Shown: positions 16,389 to 16,495 of the stretch, one piece after another | How positions within the stretch are numbered: position 1 is the first letter of the stretch | How the letters are laid out: each line of letters opens with the position of its first letter | Source: Pseudomonadota bacterium | GTDB lineage: Bacteria > Pseudomonadota > Gammaproteobacteria > Eutrophobiales > Eutrophobiaceae | Reading direction: 5' to 3' | DNA length: 34,829 bases | Assembly: GCA_022574295.1 (NCBI GenBank) | Contig: JACZSJ010000013.1 | Span: 1 to 34,829 of the forward strand | Notes under the pieces: model-generated | What the model saw: the letters and a program-made list of their open reading frames with translations, nothing else | Databases searched by the model: none | Told to the model about the DNA's origin: nothing | Position numbers and translations under genes: made by a program

Positions 16389-16412
16389 CAAATCGGCAGG
16401 ATTGCCGATTTG
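16389..16412 (+). repeat. Hairpin CAAATCGGCA-GGAT-TGCCGATTTG, GGA in loop
   Basis: 10-bp perfect stem. Confidence 0.8.
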
Positions 16413-16414
16413 CA

Positions 16415-16427
16415 CGGACAAAGTCCG
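16415..16427 (+). repeat. Hairpin CGGAC-AAA-GTCCG
   Basis: 5-bp perfect stem; GGA in stem, not loop. Confidence 0.6.
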
Positions 16428-16438
16428 CCCCGAAGGGG
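16428..16438 (+). repeat. Hairpin CCCC-GAA-GGGG
   Basis: 4-bp perfect stem. Confidence 0.5.
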
Positions 16439-16460
16439 TGTGGCACAAGGAAGTGCCACA
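16439..16460 (+). repeat. Hairpin TGTGGCAC-AAGGAA-GTGCCACA, GGA in loop
   Basis: 8-bp perfect stem; CACAAGGAAGUG resembles the CsrA consensus ACARGGAUGU. Confidence 0.8.
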
Positions 16461-16476
16461 TGTAAAAGAGCGGGAA

Positions 16477-16495
16477 AGTGAGGAGTTTTTTCACT
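16477..16495 (+). repeat. Hairpin AGTGA-GGAGTTTTT-TCACT, GGA in loop
   Basis: 5-bp stem, 9-nt loop. Confidence 0.5.

Follow-up and report, generated by a model that had tools for sequence, protein, structure and literature searches.

Genes and nested elements at the arsC-wrbA junction

The window, that is, the whole stretch of 34,829 nucleotides that was analysed, carries two genes on the + strand which are separated by an element of about 236 bp. The upstream gene is arsC (15948-16295; ArsC family, PF03960, E 1.2e-22), and the downstream one encodes a wrbA-like flavin reductase (16538-17131, start codon inferred; PF03358, E 1.1e-7). The intervening sequence is a palindrome of the MITE type (16293-16532) with TA on both sides. 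Its terminal inverted repeats, of 19 nt each, are located at 16295-16313 (GGTGTCTGTCGGACTATGG) and 16512-16530, and arsC ends in the stop codon TAG, made up of the TA together with the G that opens the MITE. Joining the flanks on either side gives CTCTA-AGACCATG. No terminator-like site was found in this region of the window.

A second and shorter element lies near the tip of the MITE (16387-16463, + strand) and is recognized by the covariance model R1 and by its fold z-score. It has GA on the 5′ side and ATGT on the 3′ side, where the family consensus is NTGA. Structurally, it is a row of four hairpins, all read on the + strand. Hairpin 1 (16389-16412) is CAAATCGGCA-GGAT-TGCCGATTTG; in the register of the family its loop is AGGATT (16398-16403), which is shortened here to 4 nt by an A-T pair confined to copies with A..T at that place. 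Hairpin 2 (16415-16427), variable in both stem and loop, is CGGAC-AAA-GTCCG, and hairpin 3 (16428-16438) is CCCC-GAA-GGGG. Hairpin 4 (16439-16460) is TGTGGCAC-AAGGAA-GTGCCACA, with a CsrA/RsmA-like ANGGAN loop at 16447-16452. A fifth inverted repeat, AGTGA-GGAGTTTTT-TCACT (16477-16495, + strand), lies outside the conserved element as a section of the MITE's right arm; its partner in the full fold is the left arm, around 16332-16361.

An earlier sequence-only reading had described these five inverted repeats as a single cluster of hairpins. All five are present where it placed them; four of them form one conserved unit, whereas the fifth is a piece of the MITE arm. For this reason its count of GGA in three of five loops has to be replaced by two of the four conserved loops. 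The fold which it had proposed as a check on 16293-16532 gave −109.5 kcal/mol for the 240-nt whole element (z −10.9 against shuffles), in the form of a single extended stem topped by the four hairpins. The 77-nt core by itself folds at −40.0 kcal/mol as compared to a shuffled mean of −21.0 (z −6.6; none of 200 shuffles reached this value).

The MITE and the hairpin core are two nested elements, found apart from each other in genomes of the same family. Palindromic copies of the MITE which lack the core are present in G028:C126 and also in G044, G042, G006, and G051, and the same-genus genome G027 has a short arsC-wrbA junction with neither MITE nor core. Terminal inverted repeats, TA on both sides, dispersed copies, and filled as well as empty junctions are thus all observed for the outer palindrome. 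TA-target MITEs include those of the RUP, ERIC, and Correia/NEMIS type. The 236-bp palindrome of the window behaves like them in its terminal repeats and TA flanks, but differs in having an independent four-hairpin element in its interior. As for a parent of the MITE, a PF13358 (IS630-type) transposase was searched for in six genomes; none was found in five of them, and one is present in G006.

Between this genome (G000) and G028, identity amounts to 76/77 in the core and 146/163 in the MITE arms, and at third codon positions to 106/116 in arsC and 160/197 in wrbA. These values are compatible with constraint on the core, the effect being modest (p 0.015 versus the arms; 0.05 versus the third positions of arsC).

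A mobile family with covarying stems

The stretch 16387-16463 represents one copy of a palindromic element, short and mobile, which occurs in Gammaproteobacteria. The core consensus is about 72 nt long and can be written as (GA)CAAATCGNC-AGGANN-GNCGATTTG, followed by CAC with hairpin 2, CCC-GNA-GGG, stem-ANGGAN-stem, and (N)TGA. Copies end with GA or TGA on both sides, entry occurs at GA, and head-to-tail tandem copies with a common GA are found in G015:C105 (L053) and G016:C55 (L073).

The family was followed with the R1 model, trained on 32 copies. The window copy scores 83.5 bits (E 1.3e-19) as a member of this training set. About 16 convincing copies are present in this genome, the best of which (contig C33) is outside the training set. 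At E < 1e-6, copies occur in 30 of 53 genomes of the family, with up to 39 per genome. The distribution extends well beyond the family: in an even sample of 370 genomes from the class Gammaproteobacteria, R1 detected copies in 111, which belong to 94 of the 273 genera. A pattern search for hairpin 1 returned at least 118 stretches in named genomes, and Methylomonas, Methylobacter, Halomonas, Billgrantia, Microbulbifer, Rhodanobacter, Luteimonas, and Marinobacterium are among the matches listed. The hairpin-1 pattern was also seen in 18 stretches of IMG/VR viral contigs (L264-L281), which may be phage or misassigned host DNA.

The four hairpins are a selected structure with strong covariation of the stems. 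Among 123 distinct sequences, 94.9% of the cells are paired and double-sided changes occur in 18 of the 22 pairs; the covariation score is 0.424 as compared to 0.120 after shuffling and at most 0.05 with slid partners, in an alignment which was fitted to the model and therefore leans towards structure. In a MAFFT alignment of 32 copies, which was not fitted to the model, compensatory changes are found in 14 of the 22 pairs. The suggestion that the hairpins reflect selection rather than random palindromes is borne out by these data, covariation among copies having been the test which the sequence-only reading itself proposed.

Rfam 15 at threshold contains no family for the window or for the window copy, and a permissive scan of the element returned nothing credible. 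No earlier description of the four-hairpin element was found in the literature, which was consulted mostly without subscription papers, so that one may exist. On balance, the element represents a mobile repeat family absent from Rfam 15, the RNA of which probably acts as a CsrA-binding module.

Insertion sites and related repeats

The sequence-only reading had treated the cluster as a feature of the arsC-wrbA element. It does sit there, but it is an independent mobile element which also occupies tRNA genes, pieces of 5S rRNA, other palindromes, and protein genes. The joined flanks lie within tRNA sequence at 16 of 102 distinct sites, as compared to 10 of 1000 control GA positions in the same loci (p 2e-11). 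Entry is in the T-loop, the anticodon loop, or the D-loop, and a tRNA piece is found nearby at six more sites. In G000:C33 (1372-1866; L113, L107), a tRNA-Ser copy that carries elements in both its D-loop and its T-loop is lined up with an intact tRNA-Ser gene and with a T-arm fragment which holds a third element. Two copies (L017, L038) are hosted by 5S rRNA-like sequence, as judged by eye, and others by palindromic repeats. In-frame copies occur in the Lhr helicase of Rhodanobacter glycinis, between the DEAD and Helicase_C domains (L244, 4054-4127), in an ankyrin protein (L201, 2752-2825), and in a PglZ-domain protein (L189, 5746-5822). The peptides typically encoded by such copies are DKSAGLPICTA.. 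and TNRQDSRFA...

A general rule of insertion into hairpin loops was considered and set aside. Enclosure of the element by flanking stems was only weakly above that of swapped-flank controls (p 0.025), and therefore the claim is limited to a preference for tRNA loops. An intron of group I or II was rejected as well, because an intact tRNA adjoins the interrupted copies and the Rfam scan gave no intron core. Matches to the sX4 and plastid UTR families at tRNA-linked loci coincide with intact tRNA genes and were ascribed to similarity with tRNA.

The orientation relative to genes was examined with crude gene calls, for which simple open reading frames with a minimum of 200 codons were taken. The strand carrying GGA coincides with that of the upstream gene within 400 bp in 33 of 43 cases (p 0.0006); for downstream genes, the corresponding count is 14 of 44 (p 0.02). 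This bias vanishes at the strictest length threshold when no distance limit is applied. From these counts it follows that the element is preferentially sense at the 3′ ends of genes.

In Halomonadaceae, the element is found within a larger conserved repeat (about AAAATCGGCGA, the element, then ..AAATGAGTACTTTGAGCCGATTTTTAACG) at L160, L175, L179, L190, L192, L194, L195, L197, L200, L203, and L204. It is apparently a compound repeat which has spread as a whole.

The closest known relative is RtT RNA (RF00391), known from the repeats of the Escherichia coli tyrT operon and annotated as processed from the tyrT transcript. Like the tRNA-linked copies, it is a row of hairpins which lies within a tRNA 3′ fragment and separates the two halves of the T-arm, and the two share the lead GATGAGAACC..GGTTCGA and a hairpin of the GCCCGAAGGGC type. 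The order in E. coli is GGATGAGAACC..GGTTCGA, hairpins including a member of the GCCCGAAGGG type, and then TAATCCTTCCCCCACCACCA. Several copies of this genome show the hairpin row in a tRNA T-arm or 3′ fragment downstream of a tRNA gene. One of the tRNA-linked copies (tRNA-Gln, G000:C88) aligns with positions 1-130 of the Rfam RtT model at 40.3 bits, the cut-off being 45, and no RtT match exceeds the Rfam cut-off in the 53 genomes. The window copy, which lies in a MITE and not in a tRNA T-arm, gives no Rfam RtT match. Conversely, E. coli RtT has no GGA loops and reaches only 8.9 bits with R1, and for these reasons it is regarded as a relative and not as a member of the same family. The comparison suggests that RtT RNA arose from a row of hairpins that came to lie in a duplicated T-loop of a tRNA.

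Rickettsia palindromic elements (RPE) are short, hairpin-rich elements inserted in frame in protein genes. They are not known to have GGA loops. They resemble the four-hairpin element in their in-frame insertion and in having no known mover, but differ in sequence and structure, and the latter is mainly found in Gammaproteobacteria. RPE-4 and RPE-6 are REPs of the CGTC super-family, which together with the GTAG super-family comprises single hairpins of 20-40 bp with an unpaired CGTC or GTAG tag (Di Nocera et al. 2013, PMC3733652). Both super-families are short palindromic repeats of many copies, sometimes lying in frame in genes or inside palindromes, and CGTC repeats, like the four-hairpin element, have no known transposase (PMC3733652). 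The element studied here is instead a row of about 72 nt, bounded by GA and NTGA, with ANGGAN loops and no tag.

The GGA loops and their possible meaning

In the loop of hairpin 4, GGA is present in 117 of the 123 sequences and A-N-GGA-N in 105; hairpin 4 was absent from the search pattern. GGA is equally frequent in the loop of hairpin 1 (117/123), where the search pattern had selected for it. Hairpins 2 and 3 mostly have loops without GGA. The commonest hexaloops of hairpin 4 begin with A (109 of 111), vary freely at position 2 (G45 T31 A27 C8), continue with GGA at positions 3-5, and mostly have T at position 6. A C-G pair closes the loop in 113 of 123 sequences, the window copy reading CAC-AAGGAA-GTG.

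The SELEX consensus of CsrA is RUACARGGAUGU, and six-nucleotide loops were present in 44 of 55 ligands; RsmE-RNA structures show an ANGGAN loop, and the motif of CsrB is CAGGA(U/A/C)G (PMC7652899). Hairpin 4 has the corresponding C-G-closed ANGGAN hexaloop, and the window sequence GCACAAGGAAGU shares 10 of 12 positions with the SELEX consensus by manual count. Longer stems may hinder the binding of CsrA (PMC7652899), and the stems of the element exceed the length seen in most SELEX winners. This genome encodes CsrA, as do 48 of the 53 family genomes. Binding of the element RNA by CsrA is likely on these sequence grounds. The interpretation first given, confined to the arsC-wrbA element, was too narrow and is supported in part.

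The sponge RNAs CsrB/CsrC and RsmX/Y/Z are similar in having several GGA-loop hairpins with CAGGA and ANGGA motifs (PMC7652899). They differ in that each is a regulatory RNA encoded at a single locus, with a promoter of its own and many sites, whereas the element is dispersed and mobile and has two GGA loops. No described sponge RNA family of the CsrB/RsmZ type matched at the window in the Rfam scan.

With moderate confidence, we lean towards a mobile palindromic element whose + strand RNA would present loops for CsrA/RsmA binding. In the window, it would be transcribed within the arsC-wrbA transcript, and elsewhere from the 3′ ends of genes and from tRNA precursors. The folded unit would offer one ANGGAN hexaloop of near-SELEX quality and, about 45 nt upstream, one AGGANN loop. 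Given this spacing, we infer that a CsrA/RsmA dimer could bind and bridge loops 1 and 4. Such binding may affect the mRNA locally, or the copies may add up to a diffuse CsrA sink. A broader version is advanced tentatively, in which class-wide mobile CsrA/RsmA-binding modules colonise tRNA loops, 5S rRNA, and gene 3′ ends as a dispersed, evolving sink for the regulator, RtT of E. coli being a member from which the GGA loops were lost. The element would bring together two subjects usually kept apart, namely, short mobile palindromic repeats and the targets of a global RNA-binding regulator. If CsrA does bind, the Csr/Rsm network would be rewired or titrated as the element moves. Predictions of Csr regulons would then need to include this family, which Rfam 15 missed at its threshold in the scanned stretches.

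The main rival, possible but rather doubtful, is a purely selfish DNA element in the manner of REP/RAYT or IS200-type elements. Its hairpins and loops would be recognised by a transposase or recombinase working on hairpins or single strands, and their resemblance to CsrA sites would be incidental. The precise GA-bounded insertion, the tandems with a common GA, and the nesting in other palindromes fit such an element, as do the in-frame copies in protein genes, which call for no RNA function. If the RNA of only one strand mattered, G-U mismatches in the stems should exceed A-C mismatches; their ratio in the 123 sequences is 19:16, with no bias towards G-U, which counts against the RNA reading and keeps this rival alive. 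However, the free second base of an otherwise fixed ANGGAN loop fits the specificity of CsrA/RsmE, and the sense orientation at gene 3′ ends likewise favours the RNA reading. Nor do the Y1 (RAYT/TnpA) transposases of these genomes accompany it, as a pattern scan of 19 genes in 15 genomes and a full reading of two loci revealed other repeats instead, and no transposase linked to the four-hairpin element was found. Two RAYT-like Y1 genes of this bacterial family (L088, 1100-2150; L085, 160-1000) lie amid an unrelated repeat, approximately GGGTCAGAGTAAGAAATTC..GAATTTTTACTCTGACCCC.

A structural RNA independent of CsrA appears improbable. It would be an RtT-like module for transcript ends or processing, cut by RNase III or RNase E, which stabilises the 3′ ends of mRNAs or tRNA precursors. 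The bias to gene 3′ ends and the full-length, albeit sub-threshold, RtT match of a tRNA-linked copy agree with it, but it leaves unexplained why loops 1 and 4 keep GGA fixed next to a free base, and the region has no terminator-like site. That the hairpins are a by-product of the MITE palindrome with no meaning of their own holds for the fifth one and is otherwise refuted, as the same four occur with compensatory changes outside MITEs at many sites and in many species, and the MITE itself has copies devoid of them.

In G005:C110 (L132) and G026:C137 (L136), the element is found with a tRNA-Ser 3′ fragment between tRNA-Ser(GCT) and tRNA-Arg(ACG), and csrA lies a few hundred bases away; given this proximity, the regulator's own gene may be linked to a CsrA-like site. 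In G014:C76, a copy (L036, near 1501-1568) ends with ..CACAAGGATGTGTGCAATGACTGCC.. at an apparent start codon, and for this reason the GGA of its hairpin 4 could provide the gene that follows with a ribosome site.
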